Below, one piece after another: positions 320 through 58,110 of a stretch of 64,000 nucleotides of DNA. The stretch lies in the NCBI GenBank assembly GCA_003024175.1, contig MDYQ01000027.1, forward strand, positions 186,001 through 250,000, written 5' to 3'. Each line of letters begins with the position of its first letter. Positions within the stretch are counted from its first letter, which is position 1. The notes below the pieces were generated by a model. That model was not told the DNA's origin and did no database searches. It was given only the letters and a program-made list of their open reading frames with translations. The translations under genes and the position numbers were made by a program. The stretch comes from Planoprotostelium fungivorum (Eukaryota > Evosea > Variosea > Cavosteliida > Cavosteliaceae).

Positions 320-1769
320 ATGAGAGCCACCGTAGCCACTCTTCTCCTCCTCCTGGTTCTCTCTGTGTCTGCTAAGACCTGTGACCTCAATGTCGGTGTC
401 ACCAACCGCATGGGTATCTACAGTGTTGCCGTTCAACTCGGCTTCTTCGAGAGAGCCGGTGTCAGCATCTGTGACCAGCCTGTGGCCGGATCTAACTCGG
501 CCTTCCCTGCCCTGGCCGCCGGCAACTTTACGGTCCTCCTCTCCACCATCGACAACACCGTCAACCGCGTGGTGAACCAAGTCCAGAATGTGACCATCAT
601 CGCCGGTATCGATCTCGGACAAGACCAGGTCGTCGTTGGAACGAAGAACATCAAGAGCTTCGCCGATCTTCAGTGAGTTCTGTGTTAATCGTGTCTCCAT
701 CGCTCACGGAGAATCATAGGGGAACCAACATCATCGTCGATTCCCCCACCTCCGGAACCGCCTTCTCCCTCAACAAGATCTTGAAGCTCAACGGTCTTCT
801 TCCCACAACCAACTACACCTACATCCAGGGTACGCTCTATCACAGCTCATACATCTCTCGATCTGGTCGCTCACATCTTCTCAGGTGGTAACAGTCAGCT
901 CCGTTTCGAGGTCTTGAAGACTGGTGTCTTCAACGGTATCAACATCTCCGCCGCTCTCATTCTGTACCCCCAGACTGCCAACATCATGGGCCGCACGGAC
1001 ATGAACGTCCTCGGAAGTCTCTCTGACTACCTCAACCCCTTCATGCTCAACTGTGTCGGTGTCCAGACCTCCACCCTCACCAACTCCACCCAAGTCGAGC
1101 TCTACACCCGCTTCTTGGCCGGTGAGACCACCATCTCATCTTCCAATCCCATCGCCGTCCATCATCATCTCCACCATTACCTCTTTATTGACTCTCTGCA
1201 GGTCTCCAGATGGCCAGAAACTTTGTCGCCGACCCCTCCAACTCTGCCGCCGTCATCAATGCCATCGCCGTCGATCTCAACATCACCACCACCGTCGCCG
1301 CCAGACAGTACCAGGCCGTGACCAACCCCATCACAGGAGAGGTCGTCCTCGATCTCACCATCTCCCGCGCCGGTCTCGCCAACGTAGTCTACGCCAGACA
1401 GGAGTTCGGTGGCTTCATCAGCCCCTACTTCAACTTGACGAAGACTCTCGAGCCCAAGACCACCGGTGGAACCATCTACGACTACACCATCTTGACTGCC
1501 GCCAAGGCCAGAGTCGCCAGTAGGGCCACCGAAGAAGTCCACACCGAGTACCTCGGTGCCGATCTGTCCGTCGTTCAGACTGCAACCCCTCAGGAGTGTG
1601 CCAACCTCTGCAAAGCCAACAGACAGTGCAACGCGGTGAGTTATAGATGAAGAGTTTTAGAAGTGACGGTGGACAGTACACCTTCGACGTGTGCCTCGGT
1701 CGTTGCCACTTGAAGAGCTCTATCTCTTCTAAGAGAATCAGCATCTGCAAGCGAAGCGGAACCATCTAA
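320..1769 (+). CDS. Secreted SsuA/THI5-like solute-binding protein with C-terminal PAN-like module
   Basis: Five exons fit well: 320-672, 720-829, 885-1121, 1202-1635 and 1677-1769. The last intron is 41 nt and its acceptor is the only one that keeps the final exon open. The product starts with a signal peptide (MRATVATLLLLLVLSVSA). The body follows the NMT1/THI5/SsuA periplasmic-binding pattern: a beta strand, then LGFFERAGV, then GS, a phrase like KSFADLQGTNIIVDSPTSG, and a GG-x-QLRFEVL segment. In bacteria such proteins bind small molecules for ABC importers; in a eukaryote a secreted version may bind a ligand or have lost that role. After residue ~330, Cys-rich stretches (CANLCKANRQCNA, then YTFDVCLGRC) resemble a PAN/Apple module. 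N-glycosylation sequons are frequent. Ligand unknown; the family call is by pattern only. Confidence 0.75.
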
Positions 1770-2147
1770 GCATGTATTTAAGCATGTGTATCAATACAGT
1801 ACCTATCCTTTTGAACTGTTTTCTTCTGTGGATGACCGCAATGTCTGTGCTTCTGTCGTCTCGTCTTCGAGGATCTTCATCACATCTGACCTCTTTCAGT
1901 CATCTTCACGAGGAAGCTGTCTGAGGTACAGAAGGTTGGGCACCTGGTGCCCTCCTACTTAGGTGGTTCTGTTTCGTTCGAAATGAACGTAATCATGAAT
2001 AAAACATTTTCTCCTGCTTTTGCAAGGTTTTTCCGAGGGTAATAAACGTGGCTGTTGATGGGAATTGACTTTGCCGCGGGTTTAGGACCTCCGAAAAAGA
2101 GCCGACCATTTCTGAGGATCACGCATCGCATGCGTATCATTTGATCC
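1770..2147. other. Intergenic region, no gene seen
   Basis: This stretch lies between two plus-strand genes and should hold the 3' UTR of the secreted binding protein and the promoter of the ABCB transporter. No conserved reading frame, RNA gene or repeat was recognised. Confidence 0.5.
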
Positions 2148-5038
2148 ATGCAGAGTCTACTCCTCTGCCGTCAGATTAGGGTACCCAATCCCTCGAACGT
2201 ATTTCGCTGCTCCTCACACCGATGGACTCTGTCACATCGTCTCACGGCTTTGCCCTCTATCAGACCGAATCAGCGATATCTCTCGACACAAACAGAGAAC
2301 ACAAAGCATCAGTCGATAGAAGATAACAAGAAGAAGAGTCTGTTCGTACGATTCAAAAAGTTTGTCGCACCTCCAGTACCCATCGTTGATGAATCTGCAC
2401 CGCCAGTAAAATCTGATAAGGTGAGTGGTGCACCTTGGTGTCCACACATGATGATACATTTTATCAGCCACAAAAGGCAGAAATGAAGAGACTGTTAACT
2501 ATTGCCGCCCCAGAGACAAAACTCTTTGCGGGTGCTTCACTCGCCTTGCTGGCAGGTACCATTGGTAAGTATATATAACCTCTCACCTCATCCTCTGACA
2601 CGTTCTACAGCTCAATTAACATTACCTGCCATCATGGGAGTTATCATCGACACCATCTCGAATCCTCAGCCACAGTACACTCTGGGCATGGTGACTCACC
2701 TGACATCTCCATCGCATCTGATGGACGACAGATCATGGTCGGTGTGGGGGGTGTCTTCGGCCTGCAGATGATCACGACCTTCTTTCGTTACACTCTCCTC
2801 AATCTTGCATCCGAGAAGATCATCAAGCGATTGAGAGAGAATGTCTTTGCCAATCTAGTCAAGCAGGACGTCACCTTCTTCGACCAAAACAAGTGAGAGC
2901 CTCTCATCTCAACGGAAATTAAAATCGTCGTAGGACCGGAGAATTGATCAATCGGCTGAGCAGTGACACGGCCATCATGGGAAAGACGATGACGGCAAAT
3001 CTGGCGAACGGATTGAAGGCCGTAGTGGAAGGTATCGGTGGTATCGCTCTGTTGCTCTTCATCGCTCCCAAGCTGACTCTCATCATGTTGTCCATCGTAC
3101 CCCCGGTGTGTGATGATGATGATGATGATGGTGGGTGACACTCCATCAGATCACTCTGGGATCGATGTATTACGGAAGATTCATCAAGAAATTATCCAAG
3201 AGCATTCAGAGCGCCCTCGCAGCTACCACGGCCGTGGCAGAAGAGAGAGTCTCAAATATTCGGACCGTCAAATCCTTCGTCCAGGTGGGTCACGTGATCA
3301 ATCTATCGAAATCTAAACGAAATTTCTAGGAAGAGAGAGAAGTAAATCGCTACAAGTCGAGAGTCGAAGAGGTGACATCCTTGTTCATCAGTATTCATCC
3401 GATCATCCGATCATCCGTAACATTTACCCGATCATCCTTATTCATCCGATCATCCGTAGCATTCACCCGATCATCCGGTTTATCCGATTATCCGATCATC
3501 CGTATTCATCCATCACGTGCTCAGCTGTCATCCAGGTCTTTGGTTTCGCTCGTAGCTCCATCTTCGCGACCGGTTTTTTCATCTCCACAGTTCATTTCGT
3601 CGGAGGCTGTGCACTGCTCACCATACTCGGTGCAGGAGGACATTTCGTCCAAACCGGTGCCATGACCATAGGACAGCTCACCTCTTTCCTACTGTACAGG
3701 TACAGATGACGTGACCGATGACGTCATCTGACGAGTACAGTGTGACGACGGTGAGCTCCATCGGGTCTATATCTAGCTTCTATGGTGACGTGATGACTGC
3801 CCTGGGAGCCAGTTCGAGAGTTTTTGAACTATTGGATCGAAAGGCGGAGACAAAGGCTGCAGGTGAATGCGTGAAATTTCATCGAATTGAGACGAGGCAG
3901 GAACCAGAAAACTCGAGACGATTCGAGGGGAAATTTCATTGGAGAACGTGGGATTTACGTACGCCACGAGAGCAGACAGGAAGGTGACGATGCTCTCTTT
4001 CGGACGGTTTCTGATGGGGTAGGTGTTGGATCAGGTCAATTTGACAGTTCCCGAGGGACAAGTTTTAGCCCTCGTGGGTCCCTCTGGTAGTGGGTGAGTC
4101 ACCATCCATGATCATGATCATGATCGATCATGATGTCGATTGGATGACACACGGAATAGAAAGAGTACAGTGTCTTCACTCATCTCTCGCTTCTATGAAC
4201 CTCAAGAAGGTGACGATATCTTTCCATTTCGATGTGATCTCACGTGGCGATATAGGAAAGATCAAGCTGGATGGTGTAGATATCAACGACTTGGACGAGA
4301 ACTGGCTGAGAGAGAACATCGGTTTGGTCGCTCAGGACGTGACCCTCTTCCAAGGCACACTCGCGGAAAATATCGCCTACGGTGTCCCGGGCAAGACCCA
4401 GGCCGACATCGAAGCGGCCGCGAAAGAAGCTAATGCTCACGGTGCGATGACGTTTGATGACGTTTGATGACGTCATCACAGATTTCATCATGGGATTCAG
4501 CCAGGGATATTCGACCTTAGTGGGGCCCAAGGGAAGAGCTCTGTCAGGTGGTCAAGCTCAGAGAATCGCAATCGCCCGCGCTCTTCTCAAGGTGAAAATT
4601 CGATGGAAATTCGATGGAAAATTCTTCGAAGAGGAAGAAAAATTTCTTCGAAAGAGCGATTGTAGATTCACATTCGATTAGAACCCGAAGGTATTGATCC
4701 TGGACGAGGCCACTTCGGCTCTGGATGCCGGTGAGATTTCAGTTAGACGTCGACACCTGACATGCAAGCAGAGAGTGAATATCTCATCCAACAGGCATTG
4801 GAGAGACTGATGGTGGGACGCACGGTCATCGGTGAGACCTTCATGATGAAGATGTGTTGAAGATCTGATGATTGATGCAGTGATCGCTCATCGTTTGAGT
4901 ACGATACGTCACGCCAGTCAAATCTGTGTGCTCAGCGCGGGAAAGATTGTAGAATCTGGAACGTTCGAAGAGCTGATGAAGGTGGAAGGAGGTGTGTTCC
5001 AACAGCTGGTACAACTGCAGACCCGTGAACTATCATAA
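2148..5038 (+). CDS. Mitochondrial ABCB-type half transporter (ABCB10/Mdl1-like)
   Basis: A half-size ABC exporter (one TMD and one NBD) split by more than ten short introns. The N-terminus is basic and Ser-rich without acids, as expected for a mitochondrial presequence. It is followed by the phrase [19 protein letters not shown], typical of the ABCB10/Mdl1 group. TMD landmarks include [13 protein letters not shown] and [11 protein letters not shown]. The NBD has Walker A GPSGSGKST, split by an intron at 4094-4159, then a Q-loop ([10 protein letters not shown]), signature [16 protein letters not shown] near 4540, Walker [14 protein letters not shown] near 4692, and H-loop VIAHRLST near 4883. 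Such proteins export peptides or heme-pathway compounds across the inner mitochondrial membrane. ABCB8 is an alternative subfamily. Confidence 0.9.
3393..3512. repeat. Degenerate CCGATCATC minisatellite inside an ABCB intron
   Basis: About a dozen imperfect copies of ATCCGATC/CATCCG words lie between the exon ending near 3372 and the exon beginning near 3536. The array accounts for the unusual length of this intron. Confidence 0.85.
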
Positions 5039-52360: not shown

Positions 52361-54632
52361 TTAATTGCCCAACATGTTGATTCTTCGGTTGTATTCCTCG
52401 ATCGTGATGACTTGGCATCCCGCCGGCCCTTCCTCTGCTTCTCCTTGTTCCTTCTTTCCCAACTCTGTCCTCTCTTCAGTCATCATGCTACATGATGGTG
52501 ATGCAGGTGATGATGGATCGTGATGGTGATGGATAGGAGTAGTCACCCAATTGTGATGCGTTATCGTCCAAGTCAAAATCATACAGACGACGTAACAGGT
52601 TGTGTACGTCCATATACTTGATATCCACATTCTGTATGTTGACTTCTGCATTGTTGTTGTCGTCCTTCTTTGGGTCTACCTTCTTGGTTTTCTTCACTTT
52701 ACTCCTCCTTGCAAACGGATCCAACTCGTTACCTTCCGTCTCTATCTTCATGATGGACTGAAAATCCGGTGAGTTTTCGATGAAAACTGAGGGAAATTTA
52801 CCCCCGCGGCGATGTTCTCTTGTCTGCTCTTCTGGTTGATGGCAGACACCTGGACGTATCATTCCGTGAAAATTCCACGAAAATTCTAGAAATATTCTCA
52901 CCTTGTCTACGCCACGTGACCTGCTCTCTATCTTGAGAGTCACACTCTCGATCTCCTCTTGCAATTTCCTCGCACTACAACGCGTCAATCCACGAATTTC
53001 ACTCGAATCTCTCACAGTGCGACGTCCCCACTCTCCTCTGCCACAGTCTTCAACTGCACCAACTTGATGCGTTCCGCAGTCCAATTGACGTGCAGCTTGT
53101 CCTTCCTCCTCTTATCTTCCAACATCTTGTTGACATCCTGCTCCGTGTACACGTAGTTCTCCATCTCATCCAGCCTGATCTTCCTCTCCTGTGCCACCTT
53201 GGACGTCAGCGGACTCTCTCCACTCTTTTCTGTCTCGGAGATCCACTTTTGATACTCTGCCTCGGTCGGCGGGCCGTTCGAAACGTATTCCATAGTGAAG
53301 CTCTTCGCTGCACTGCCGAGAACGAGCGTGAGCTCTTTACCGGTGGCCTTACCACCGAGTGAGTAGATGCGACCACCTTCCTTGCAGCCGGTGATGCGAG
53401 CGAGGCGATAGACGGCACGGTTGTCAGATTGGGCGCCGATGCCGATGCGTACGTAGAAATCTACGATCTGAAATTCCATTGGAATCGTGGGGAAAGGTGT
53501 CGTTCACCTTCTCGTCAAAGTATGGTTCGTTGAGTTTTCTCTCGAGGAAGTCACGCTTGACGGTGATGGCTGACATCTCTTGTAAGCTGGCGGTAGCCTC
53601 TTCTTGAGCCTATTTTTAGAACGTGAGATCACGTGATCGTACAGGACGAGATAGGTCCACCTGCTTCTTGTTGCGTCGATCGGCCTCCCTCTCTTCCTTC
53701 TCTCTCTGTGGGCTGCTACCTCTGCTCTCATCATCTCCAGATTCCTTTCATCGTTTCAATCCAATGCAACCATTTCACAACGATGGACCCACCTCTGAAT
53801 CAGAATCCTCAAAGTCGGAAGCCTCCGAATCGTCTCTGATTTCCTTCTTCTTCTTTTTCTTCTCCAAATTGGGCTGGACTCTGTTCTTGAGTGATTCCAA
53901 GGCCACATCCTTTGATGTCTTTCCTGTCTGGACGTTCCTCTTCGAGCGAGCTGCGGGGATGAGCGCGAGAAATTTTTGTGAGAGGTCTCACAGCTGGCAG
54001 GGCTCGCTGCGCCCGTGTCCTTCGTGGGAGTGATGGAGGGAAATGTCTTTCCGCTGTTTTTCAATTTGATCGCCATCTCATGTCTGTATCGCGATCAGAT
54101 CGAGATGATGTGACGTCCTCACTTTTCCCTGAGTTCCTTCCTTCGGTTGAAACGTTCGGAGATGATTTCCTCACGAGCGACTTCGGACATGGACATGAGA
54201 CTGTGAAGATTGAGCTGGATCGATATGACGATCCAAATCATACTCACTTTCTCCTGTCTTCTTCGTCTTTGAACAAATCTTGGTCGTATCCATCGTTGAA
54301 ATTGTCTTCATCAGACTCCGGCTCTCTTTCACGACATCAGGCGTGTGGGGTAAGAAGATCATCTGACTCACGCCTTGCTTCTCTTCTTTGGTGGTCTCTT
54401 GGGAGGTGCCTGTTTGATTGGTCTGGGGGCTTCCTCTTCTTCACTATCGGACGAACTGTCACTGGATGAGCTGGATGATTCAGAAGAAGAATCTTTCGAC
54501 TTTCGGACGATTCTCTTCTTGCCCTGAGATGATTCAGGAATAGATTAACAGATGAAATGATCTCACCCCTTTATTGTTCTGTTTCGACCCACCGGTCATT
54601 CCCAGCAGAAGATCGTCCACGTCCTCTGGCAT
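52361..54632 (-). CDS. RTF1: RTF1, Paf1-complex subunit with Plus3 domain
   Basis: Starts MPEDVDDLLLGMTGGSKQNN. A Ser/Asp/Glu-rich acidic stretch and basic patches follow, as in all RTF1 proteins. The Plus3 domain lies around 53480-53050: FYVRIGIGAQSDNRAVYRLA, then RITGCKEGGRIYSLGGKATG and FTMEYVSNGPPTEAEYQKW. Next comes the coiled-coil-like MENYVYTEQDVNKMLEDKRR. A terminal exon, reached by splicing out the GATGATGG-rich intron near 52545-52490, ends VITIEEYNRRINMLGN, matching the conserved EEYKRR end of RTF1. The protein binds phosphorylated Spt5 through Plus3 and promotes histone H2B ubiquitination during elongation. Confidence 0.9.
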
Positions 54633-54926: not shown

Positions 54927-56891
54927 ATGTCTGCTGAAGCGAGATCTGTCCTCTTAGCTGAGAAATGGACCGAGCAAATCAACCCAAAGGGATGGTGGAT
55001 GTCCGAAAAGCTCGATGGAGTCAGAGCATGTGAGGCGACATATGATACGCTTCCGGAAGACTGACCGTTATCCAAAGATTGGAACGGAAAGAACTTTTAT
55101 TCTAGACAAGGTAATCTCTTCGTCGCACCAGCTTGGTTTAAAGAGGACTTACCCTCAACTCCCCTCGATGGAGAGGTGAGAGAGGCTTCTATCACAGAGA
55201 TTGACGGAAGCAGTTGTGGTGTGGTCGTGGACTCTTCCAAAAGTGCATCGGAATCATCAAGAAGCAAAAGGATGCGCGGGAAGAGGACTGGCAGTATGTG
55301 ACTTATCTCGTCTTTGACGCTCCAGACCAACCGGGACCCTACGAAAAGAGAGTCGAATTCCTCAACAAGGTGATTGAAATGATGAATGACATACACGTCG
55401 AATCAACTTTCATCAGGTCGTTCGAAGTGACAGCAGCACATCTTATGCCGCGGTCGTGGGCATTCGAGAGTGTGTAGACGTCGCCCATATGAAGAAGTAT
55501 TTATCCGAAGTCGAACTCGCTGGTGGAGAGTGAGCCTAATCATCCATCGCATGATTCATCTAAATCACCGTCAGAGGCCTCATGCTTCGCGAACCGAAAT
55601 CGAAATACGAGAACGGCAGATCGTCGACCCTCTTGAAGGTCAAGACGTTTCACGATGAAGAAGCCAAGGTCATCGGACACGAAGAAGGAGAGGGCCGATG
55701 CCAAGGCATGATGGGAGGTCTGAAGTGTGTTCTACCCAATGGTAAACAGTTTACTGTAGGCACTGGCTTCACGTGAGGATTTATTTTTCTCCATCGTGGA
55801 GATGCTGATGAAGATGAAGGGACGCACAGAGACAGAGACCACCCAAGAAGGGCTCCGTCATCACATTTAAATTTCAAGAATTAACCAACAGCGGAGTACC
55901 CAGGTTTCCCGTGTTCCTTCGCATCCGAGAGGACGTGGTGAGTAGATGGAGATGATGTCGAGACATGATCTGATATGTCCATCAGACGTGGGAGGATGTG
56001 TTAGAATCTGCAAAGTCGAAGACCCCCAAATCTTCTATCGCCAAGCCTATCAGAGAGCTAAAGAAGCAACATTCCATCTTGTTTTCGGTCATTCCATCGA
56101 GAGACCAAGAGACAGGAGAGAAGAGGGTGAGAGGCAGACACGCCTCTAACTCGTAGGTTCTGATGTGAACAGGTGACATCCGATGATGAGATGGAGGAGT
56201 CCGAACAGAGGGTGGAACACAAACAGATGGGCGCCCCCATCGTTATCAATGGAGAGAAAGTCAAGCCGGGTGAGATGAAAGATGTGATGTCGATCGAATG
56301 ACACGAAGGACAGAATGTAAATACGGAAATCAATGTTTTAGAACCAACAAAGAACATCTGGATGCATTTTCTCATCCAGCAGACAAGCCACAGCCGAAAG
56401 TCAAGGTTCGTCCATGTCTTCATCTTGTGTCTAAAGATGAGTAGAAGGAGGAGAAGAAGATACCTTGCAACTGGGGATCGAAATGTCACCTACAATCTAA
56501 GGTCCATCTGGCCAAATACAGTCACCCCAAGGAAGAAGAGACGGCGGCGACCGGCGATGAAGATGCAACCCTCGAGATGGTTCTGAAAGACAAGGAAGAA
56601 GACGAAGATGAAGTCATCAGCGTCAACAAGAAGGAATGGGAGGCACTTCACGTTCAATTAGAAGAAGGGAAGCAGAGGATCCGAGAGCTTGAAGAGATGT
56701 TCGAGGTGCAGGCACCTGCGGCGAAGAAGTCAAAGACATCATCGGATGAACCAGTAGAAGAGGAGAAAGACGGAAGAGTCCCTTGCATCTACGGGGCAAA
56801 ATGCACACGAAAGGCAGAAGATCACAGACAGAGTGAGAAATCCACATGAAGACGTCTTCTCACCTAGACAGAGTATTCTCATGTAAACTGA
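54927..56891 (+). CDS. Compact ATP-dependent DNA ligase with three C-terminal PBZ zinc fingers
   Basis: The ligase core reads WWMSEKLDGVRA (motif I, Lys in KLDG at 55008), then YWNGKNFYSRQGNLFVAPAW, FKEDLPSTPLDGE, LWCGRGLFQKCIGIIKKQK, YLVFDAP, GLMLREPKSKYENGRSSTLL, KVKTFHDEEAKVIGHEEGEG and GMMGGLKCVLPNGKQFTVGTG. The OB-fold end PRFPVFLR follows. This order matches the small bacterial ATP ligases (Haemophilus/LigE-like) and kinetoplastid relatives more than nuclear LIG1/3/4. After an acidic linker come three PBZ fingers of the form C-x-[YW]-G-x2-C...H-x3-[FY]-S-H: 56316-56378, 56466-56528 and 56784-56888 (the last split by intron 56833-56871). PBZ binds poly(ADP-ribose), so recruitment to PARP-marked breaks is inferred. 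An in-frame-compatible open stretch from ATG 54799 may add an N-terminal extension. Confidence 0.85.
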
Positions 56892-57160: not shown

Positions 57161-58110
57161 ATGAGAACGACCCTCTTTGCTCTCGCCGCTCTCCTCGTCG
57201 TGGCTTCTGCCTTTCCTCGTGGTCCTAACGGCCGCCTGTTGATCGTTGGCGACGATGACCATTCTTTCCAGGCACCCGCCGACGGTGCTTACCGCTCTCC
57301 TTGCCCAGGTAACATCTTTAGACATGATGTTAGACGATGACTGATCTCATTCAAGCCCTGAACACCCTTGCCAACCATGGATATCTTCCCAGAAGTGGAC
57401 AGAACATCACGAAGGACGACCTCATCCAGGGACTCTTCAAGGGACTTAACGTTGGTGGGTTCACTCATCATAAGGGAGTTCAATAGTAATGTCGGCTTAG
57501 GAAGAGACATTGGTTTCATTCTGGCCAATGGTGCCTTCAAGAAATTCGGAGCCACCGACTCCATCTCCCTGCTTGACTTGCAGCAACACAACATGTAAAT
57601 GATTCCGATACCGGCTCGTGTCATTCTAATCGTACATATTAGGATCGAGCACGATTCTTCTATGACCCGCAATGATAACGCTCTGGGAGACTCTACTGTC
57701 GTCAACGCCACCCTTCTCCAGGCCCTCCTCGACTCTTCTTCCGATGATACTGTTCTCACCTGGAAGGACATGGTTGCCCACCGTCGTGTGAGTCGAAGCG
57801 CCTCTCTTCATGATTTCCAATCGTATCAATCATCCTGTCTGATGAAAGAATGCAGAGACGCCAGGCCGATTCCAAGCAGAACAACCCCAGCCTCACCTGG
57901 AACGAGGAACAGAAGCAAGCCGCTGCCGGAGAGGTTGCCATCTTCCAGCTCGTCTTCGGAGACTGGAACACTGGTGTTGATCTCGCTGTCGCCCAGTCCA
58001 TCCTCGGACAAGAGCAGTTCCCCGATGGCTGGCAGCCCCATGAGGGCACTGTCTTGGCCGTCGACGTTCTGCCCAGACAAGCCATCGTCCGTGTCGCTGA
58101 CGGATTTTAA
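57161..58110 (+). CDS. Secreted heme-thiolate peroxidase (chloroperoxidase/unspecific peroxygenase family)
   Basis: Signal peptide MRTTLFALAALLVVASAF. The heme-ligand motif is SPCPALNTLANHGYLPRSGQ, with Cys in PCP near 57302. Next come NITKDDLIQGLFKGLNV and the catalytic-region phrase IEHDSSMTRND near 57640, where EHD is typical of the chloroperoxidase/short-UPO branch (long UPOs have EGD). The C-terminal half continues to GEVAIFQLVFGDWNTG and ends FPDGWQPHEGTVLAVDVL. Such enzymes use hydrogen peroxide to halogenate or oxygenate organic substrates outside the cell. The family is best known from fungi and oomycetes. Five exons; the last begins near 57856. Length about 250 residues, normal for the short group. 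Confidence 0.88.

Follow-up and report, generated by a model that had tools for sequence, protein, structure and literature searches.

The window analysed here, a 64,000-nucleotide stretch of the genome of the amoeba Planoprotostelium fungivorum (contig MDYQ01000027.1, positions 186,001 to 250,000), carries on its forward strand at 54927-56891 a gene modelled as 11 exons, with ten introns of 38-48 nt between them and a product of 507 amino acids. The start ATG lies at 54927 and the stop TGA ends at 56891, so the coordinates of the original prediction were right. Pfam, PDB matches and the splice model identify exons 1-6 (54927-55937, individually 54927-55029, 55078-55175, 55214-55369, 55417-55529, 55575-55772 and 55820-55937, all on the + strand) as a Lig E-type catalytic core, with a nucleotidyltransferase domain and an OB domain. 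Exons 7 (55986-56126) and 8 (56173-56269), also on the + strand, form a linker (55986-56269) that joins the core to three PBZ (poly(ADP-ribose)-binding zinc finger) fingers; no Pfam domain above the cut-off was found in the linker.

Both domains of the two-domain Lig E core are present: PF01068 (DNA_ligase_A_M) matched residues 12-180 of the 507-residue protein with 47.4 bits, and PF14743 (DNA_ligase_OB_2) matched residues 194-259 with 102.1 bits. The OB-fold end and the motif I sequence KLDG, read directly at 55008-55019 (+), had both been predicted, and both are there. Among 17 PDB matches, the Lig E structures 4d05, 8u6x and 6gdr ranked first to third, with E-values from 1.6e-57 (4d05) to 6.4e-55; the next match had an E-value of 3.4e-10, and the Chlorella virus ligase was far weaker. 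These canonical proteobacterial enzymes have the same catalytic core as the window protein but carry no fingers. In a three-row alignment, the KLDG motif and residues K28, D30, G31, R33, D65, G66, E67, F101, D102, E157, G158, K178 and K180 were invariant. We take these residues to be parts of the named ligase and nucleotidyltransferase motifs and, from the role known in the ligase superfamily, assume Lys28 to be the adenylated residue. No leader peptide was apparent by eye in the window protein, in which the Lig E match starts at residue 8; many canonical proteobacterial Lig E proteins are described as having one (PMC8455567).

The C-terminal tail holds three fingers with the common spacing C-x5-C-x6-H-x3-[FY]-S-H, which includes the identical H-x3-[FY]-S-H spacing originally noted. 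Searched singly against a Pfam cut-off of 22.7 bits, finger 1 (56316-56375, +) scored 46.7 bits, finger 2 (56466-56525, +) 30.8 bits and finger 3 (56784-56832 plus 56872-56882, that is 56784-56882, +) 34.3 bits, so that profile and pattern identify all three as PBZ. Finger 3 is split by the 39-nt intron 10 (56833-56871, +; GTGAGA..AGACAG). The idea that removal of this intron completes the finger is well supported by the gene sequence: without the splice the finger scored 23.4 bits, barely over the cut-off, and of five GT..AG pairs tried, all with the single donor GTGAGA, only one restored it.

Equal binding of poly(ADP-ribose) by all three fingers is not supported. APLF residues Y381, Y386 and R387 are named as contacts with poly(ADP-ribose) (PAR) in a figure legend of PMC6264785. 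The corresponding residues are Y, F and R in finger 1 (APLF match E 8.4e-11), W, H and L in finger 2 (E 1.4e-4) and, by an alignment of the cysteines made by eye, Y, T and R in finger 3. Thus, finger 2 differs from APLF at all three positions and fingers 1 and 3 at one each; the six PBZ loci that the profile search matched elsewhere in the genome keep Y, Y and R in every case. Because the degenerate finger 2 lacks the reported contact residues, the description of three PAR-binding fingers is too strong; since these residues are mostly kept in fingers 1 and 3, the tail would most likely bind PAR through those two. Between fingers 2 and 3, AlphaFold2 predicts a 26-residue helix (56628-56705, +), possibly a coiled coil. 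In this model of exon 10 alone, made with no alignment, the mean pLDDT was 64.8, and helix 62-87 was confident (means of 86, 93 and 74 for the 10-residue blocks covering it).

Does the genome offer such a tail a ligand? The 36.9-Mb assembly (471 contigs, window included) gave 15 exon-level profile matches to PARP domains and 10 to PARG domains. With these domains, and with the ligase, OB and PBZ matches all above their Pfam cut-offs, the predicted combination of a compact bacterial-type ATP ligase with three PBZ fingers stands. The PBZ profile had eight matches in the genome, two of them fingers of the ligase gene and six elsewhere, and a further weak match lay on contig C287. PBZ fingers occur at the C-terminus of a Ku70 model (contig C455), at the N-terminus of a PARP-family protein model (L050, G000 C149, 3585-5048), beside a CUE domain in a model on contig C58, and in an aprataxin-like model with BRCT, FHA, PBZ, macro, HIT-type and zinc-finger domains (L048, G000 C99, 2792-5586), where the PBZ finger scored 21.4 bits in the gene model, below the cut-off, and 45.9 bits as an open frame. 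DNA ligase IV is encoded on contig C433, and further ligase matches lie on C142, C155 and C340. A Ku70 with a C-terminal PBZ finger has been reported for five dictyostelids and for P. fungivorum (PMC11936186). The Dictyostelium Ku70-PBZ and APL proteins, as described in PMC8529158 and PMC5087659, resemble the window protein in being amoebal repair proteins that bear PBZ, but they are not ligases.

We consider that the protein is probably a nick-sealing ligase recruited by PAR. In this reading the core would close nicks and possibly also simple ends, through adenylation of Lys28, transfer of AMP to the 5' phosphate and joining. The tail would keep the enzyme at sites of fresh PAR made by PARP. 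Most of this would fall to fingers 1 and 3; finger 2 would contribute weakly or structurally, and the helix that precedes finger 3 would act as a spacer or dimer contact. PARG would then free the ligase from PAR. PAR binding, recruitment, a nuclear location and the pathway are what we infer from the observed domains, the intact motif residues, the finger scores and the PARP and PARG domains of the genome. Findings reported for the Lig E-PBZ protein of the rotifer Adineta vaga lend support by analogy: it was over-represented after irradiation, its depletion from extracts reduced the repair of single-strand breaks, and its expression raised the radio-tolerance of human cells (PMC10665377). The emphasis of the rotifer authors differs from ours: to them, the PBZ domains serve to bring in further repair proteins (PMC10665377).

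It is also conceivable, although we think it unlikely, that the tail has ceased to be chiefly a PAR reader, its diverged fingers contacting protein, RNA or DNA while the ligase is recruited in some other way. The loss of the contact residues from finger 2, the single changes in fingers 1 and 3, and a published likening of the PBZ fold to tandem C3H1 fingers that bind single-stranded RNA (PMC4030884) are in keeping with such a shift. However, the only change in finger 1 is from Y to F, its Y and R being retained, finger 3 likewise retains Y and R, and all three fingers pass the PBZ cut-off.

At the level of the sequence, the fusion of core and fingers in one gene holds, and a fused mRNA is predicted. 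Removal of all ten introns yields a single reading frame, and retention of an intron introduces a stop in eight cases and a frameshift in two. In 10 of the 11 exons the predicted frame outscored both other forward frames, and in the last (20 nt) it tied, under a codon model trained on 39 open reading frames from the window and the other loci, those of the ligase gene being excluded, although the choice of frames was made by a model seeded with the ligase gene. A gene finder whose codon model was likewise seeded with the ligase gene recovered introns 1-9 unaided but not intron 10. The donor of intron 9 (GTTCGT) is poor, and two alternative splices of this intron both broke the frame. The acceptor of intron 5 (ATGAAG) was picked to fit homologues; an acceptor at 55829 broke the frame, and 55819 was adopted. 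Because these calls lean partly on homology and on intact fingers, a few residues near introns 5 and 9 may be wrong.

Could a Lig E gene without fingers and an adjoining gene for a PBZ protein have been wrongly merged? The splice model was derived from DNA alone, the modelled neighbours lie just about 270-295 nt from the ligase gene, and intron 9 has its weak donor. Nevertheless, exons 7 and 8 span the whole stretch from core to fingers and, in the frame that links the two, are free of stops and resemble coding sequence, with positive codon scores, and a C-terminal PBZ on Lig E is an architecture already published; we therefore regard such a merger as very improbable. Just as improbable, in our judgement, is an organelle ligase resembling kinetoplastid Lig K with incidental fingers: Lig K is a relative of Lig E, and publications have used the two names interchangeably, but a core match that begins eight residues into the protein leaves little room for a targeting peptide, and the other modelled PBZ proteins of the genome include repair proteins.

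The original prediction knew of no ligase with three PBZ fingers, while allowing for related ones in other amoebae; its suggestion of novelty is not supported, since fusions of Lig E with PBZ have been published (PMC6264785, PMC10665377). The Lig E of bdelloid rotifers, first called Ligase K in 2018, is described with one or two C-terminal PBZ fingers, that of Mortierella verticillata with one, and that of Thecamonas trahens is reported to bear PBZ; most other eukaryotic Lig E proteins are stated to lack PBZ (PMC6264785, PMC10665377). In the published drawings, collapsed branches are shown by representatives only. The window protein has the bdelloid arrangement, with the core N-terminal and PBZ on the C-terminal side. 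By comparison with the published descriptions, AvLigE-A/B have one or two PBZ fingers amid PST-rich repeats, whereas the window protein has three and a predicted helix; Mortierella and Thecamonas share core and PBZ with it, fewer fingers being described for Mortierella (PMC10665377, PMC6264785). Judged by title or the start of the abstract, none of the matches listed from the open-licence literature concerned an amoebal ligase with three PBZ fingers. As read from its sequence, the protein is thus of an already known kind, with an unusual number of fingers, one of them degenerate.

Where does the core come from? A scan of species genomes gave at least 534 relatives; the best 80, those that most resembled the core of the window ligase, were kept, a choice that biases the sample towards close forms. 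These 80 come mostly from Planctomycetota and Myxococcota, with up to 54% identity. Counted as motifs in stop-to-stop frames, some of which were ended by contig ends, a SWIM-like motif was present in 69 of the 80 (L051-L130) and a WGR motif in 41 (39 C-terminal, 2 N-terminal); in L115 and L106 the WGR motif precedes the core. Of 45 relatives on viral contigs, 15 had the SWIM-like motif (L132, L134-L136, L147-L150, L152-L156, L169 and L172, some on contigs of more than 300 kb) and none had WGR. The PBZ pattern was found in none of these 125 relatives (80 bacterial of at least 534, and 45 on viral contigs). In the window ligase, no CxC was seen by eye in the protein, and no SWIM-like CxC..CxH motif was found in the three forward frames over 826 nt upstream. 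Thus, the closest of the cores found, in the Planctomycetota, Myxococcota and others, belong to proteins that often carry SWIM-like or WGR motifs and no PBZ pattern, whereas the window protein bears PBZ fingers but lacks both SWIM and WGR.

The WGR domain is known from PARP enzymes. All three C-terminal pieces examined in Pfam matched WGR, with 59.1 bits (L057), 78.9 bits in two stretches (L060) and 72.7 bits (L063, locus 1752-3032); the L063 piece also matched an uncharacterised Bacteroides protein of solved structure (E 2e-13). SWIM never rose above its Pfam cut-off of 19.6 bits in the bacterial relatives, with 12.7 bits for the L060 piece, no match at E <= 1 for L063 and none at E <= 0.01 for L053; SWIM is assigned there by its motif. 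In a 24-row alignment, C31, C33, C48 and H50 of the pattern were invariant, which is no independent proof of SWIM because the rows were picked for having the motif; G14, S15, Y20, A35 and W36, which lie outside the pattern, were invariant as well. Among the 50 Foldseek matches listed for a bacterial model (mean pLDDT 86.8), 49 were ligases and one a capping enzyme; SWIM and WGR had no match of their own in this list. A planctomycete ligase with a C-terminal WGR domain is mentioned in PMC8567305. In PMC8455567, leaderless Lig E proteins of the Myxococcales form a cluster together with a small number of eukaryotic sequences, most of them from fungi; the length limit of 250-370 amino acids given there would leave out the longer SWIM/WGR forms.

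PF14743 had only four exon-level matches in the genome, confined to the window ligase and to contig C61, where a second Lig E lies (L042, G000 C61, 2892-4983, - strand; a 550-residue model, partly hand-spliced to fit homologues). Its core is of the same type and 46% identical to that of the window, but it has no PBZ and carries a SWIM-like motif before the core (11.2 bits in Pfam, below the 19.6 cut-off). Its N-terminus resembled one FHA region of the same genome (BLASTP E 0.011), with no Pfam or PDB match to FHA, and is only suggestive of such a domain. The two Lig E genes of this one genome thus differ in their accessory parts. Both amoeba ligases are nearer to bacterial proteins (at best 54% for the window and 56% for C61) than to each other (46%). 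A 96-row tree placed neither of them, with low supports and an unsettled bootstrap. All three groupings put to AU tests were retained: a pairing of the two amoeba ligases (0.261), one of the window ligase and canonical Lig E (0.339) and one of the C61 ligase and canonical Lig E (0.15). The predicted bacterial origin is thus supported for the core in the broad sense only, by relatives of up to 54% identity among the best 80 of at least 534; trees and AU tests single out no donor and give no proof of descent from SWIM/WGR forms.

Where did the PBZ fingers on the rotifer enzyme arise? This evolutionary question is what is new here for follow-up. Planoprotostelium has been reported as closest to rotifer Lig E, the amoeba gene in the published tree being either of the two, and for this reason the fusion in the window bears on the rotifers. 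We speculate, tentatively and with more doubt than confidence, that the PAR-reading ligase took shape in a microbial eukaryote, where PBZ fingers replaced the accessory modules of a SWIM/WGR-type Lig E, and that bdelloids took over the finished Lig E-PBZ fusion from an amoeba of this sort instead of adding the fingers themselves. If so, direct sensing of a break would have become the reading of PARP's signal at the break. Because PBZ fingers already stand at the C-terminus of a Lig E in an amoeba genome, acquisition as a fusion is a directly testable alternative for the rotifers.

Several minor observations can be added. Searches of the window for Rfam families and for tRNAs gave no match, and a short pattern modelled on 18S rRNA had two hits, both with mismatches, whereas its reversed control had 15. 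Its GC content is about 49%; dictyostelid genomes are AT-rich. Two DCD-domain matches scored 31.8 and 27.2 bits (cut-off 27). The divergent neighbour upstream (52361-54632, - strand), with some 295 nt between its start and that of the ligase, encodes a Plus-3 domain (Rtf1-like). Directly downstream of the ligase, at 57161-58110 (+), lies a family-2 heme peroxidase of the peroxygenase type with a PCP motif (PF01328, 174 bits); the account in PMC8772875 names, with stated uncertainty, only oomycetes, two diatoms and P. fungivorum as carriers of putative unspecific-peroxygenase genes outside the true fungi.
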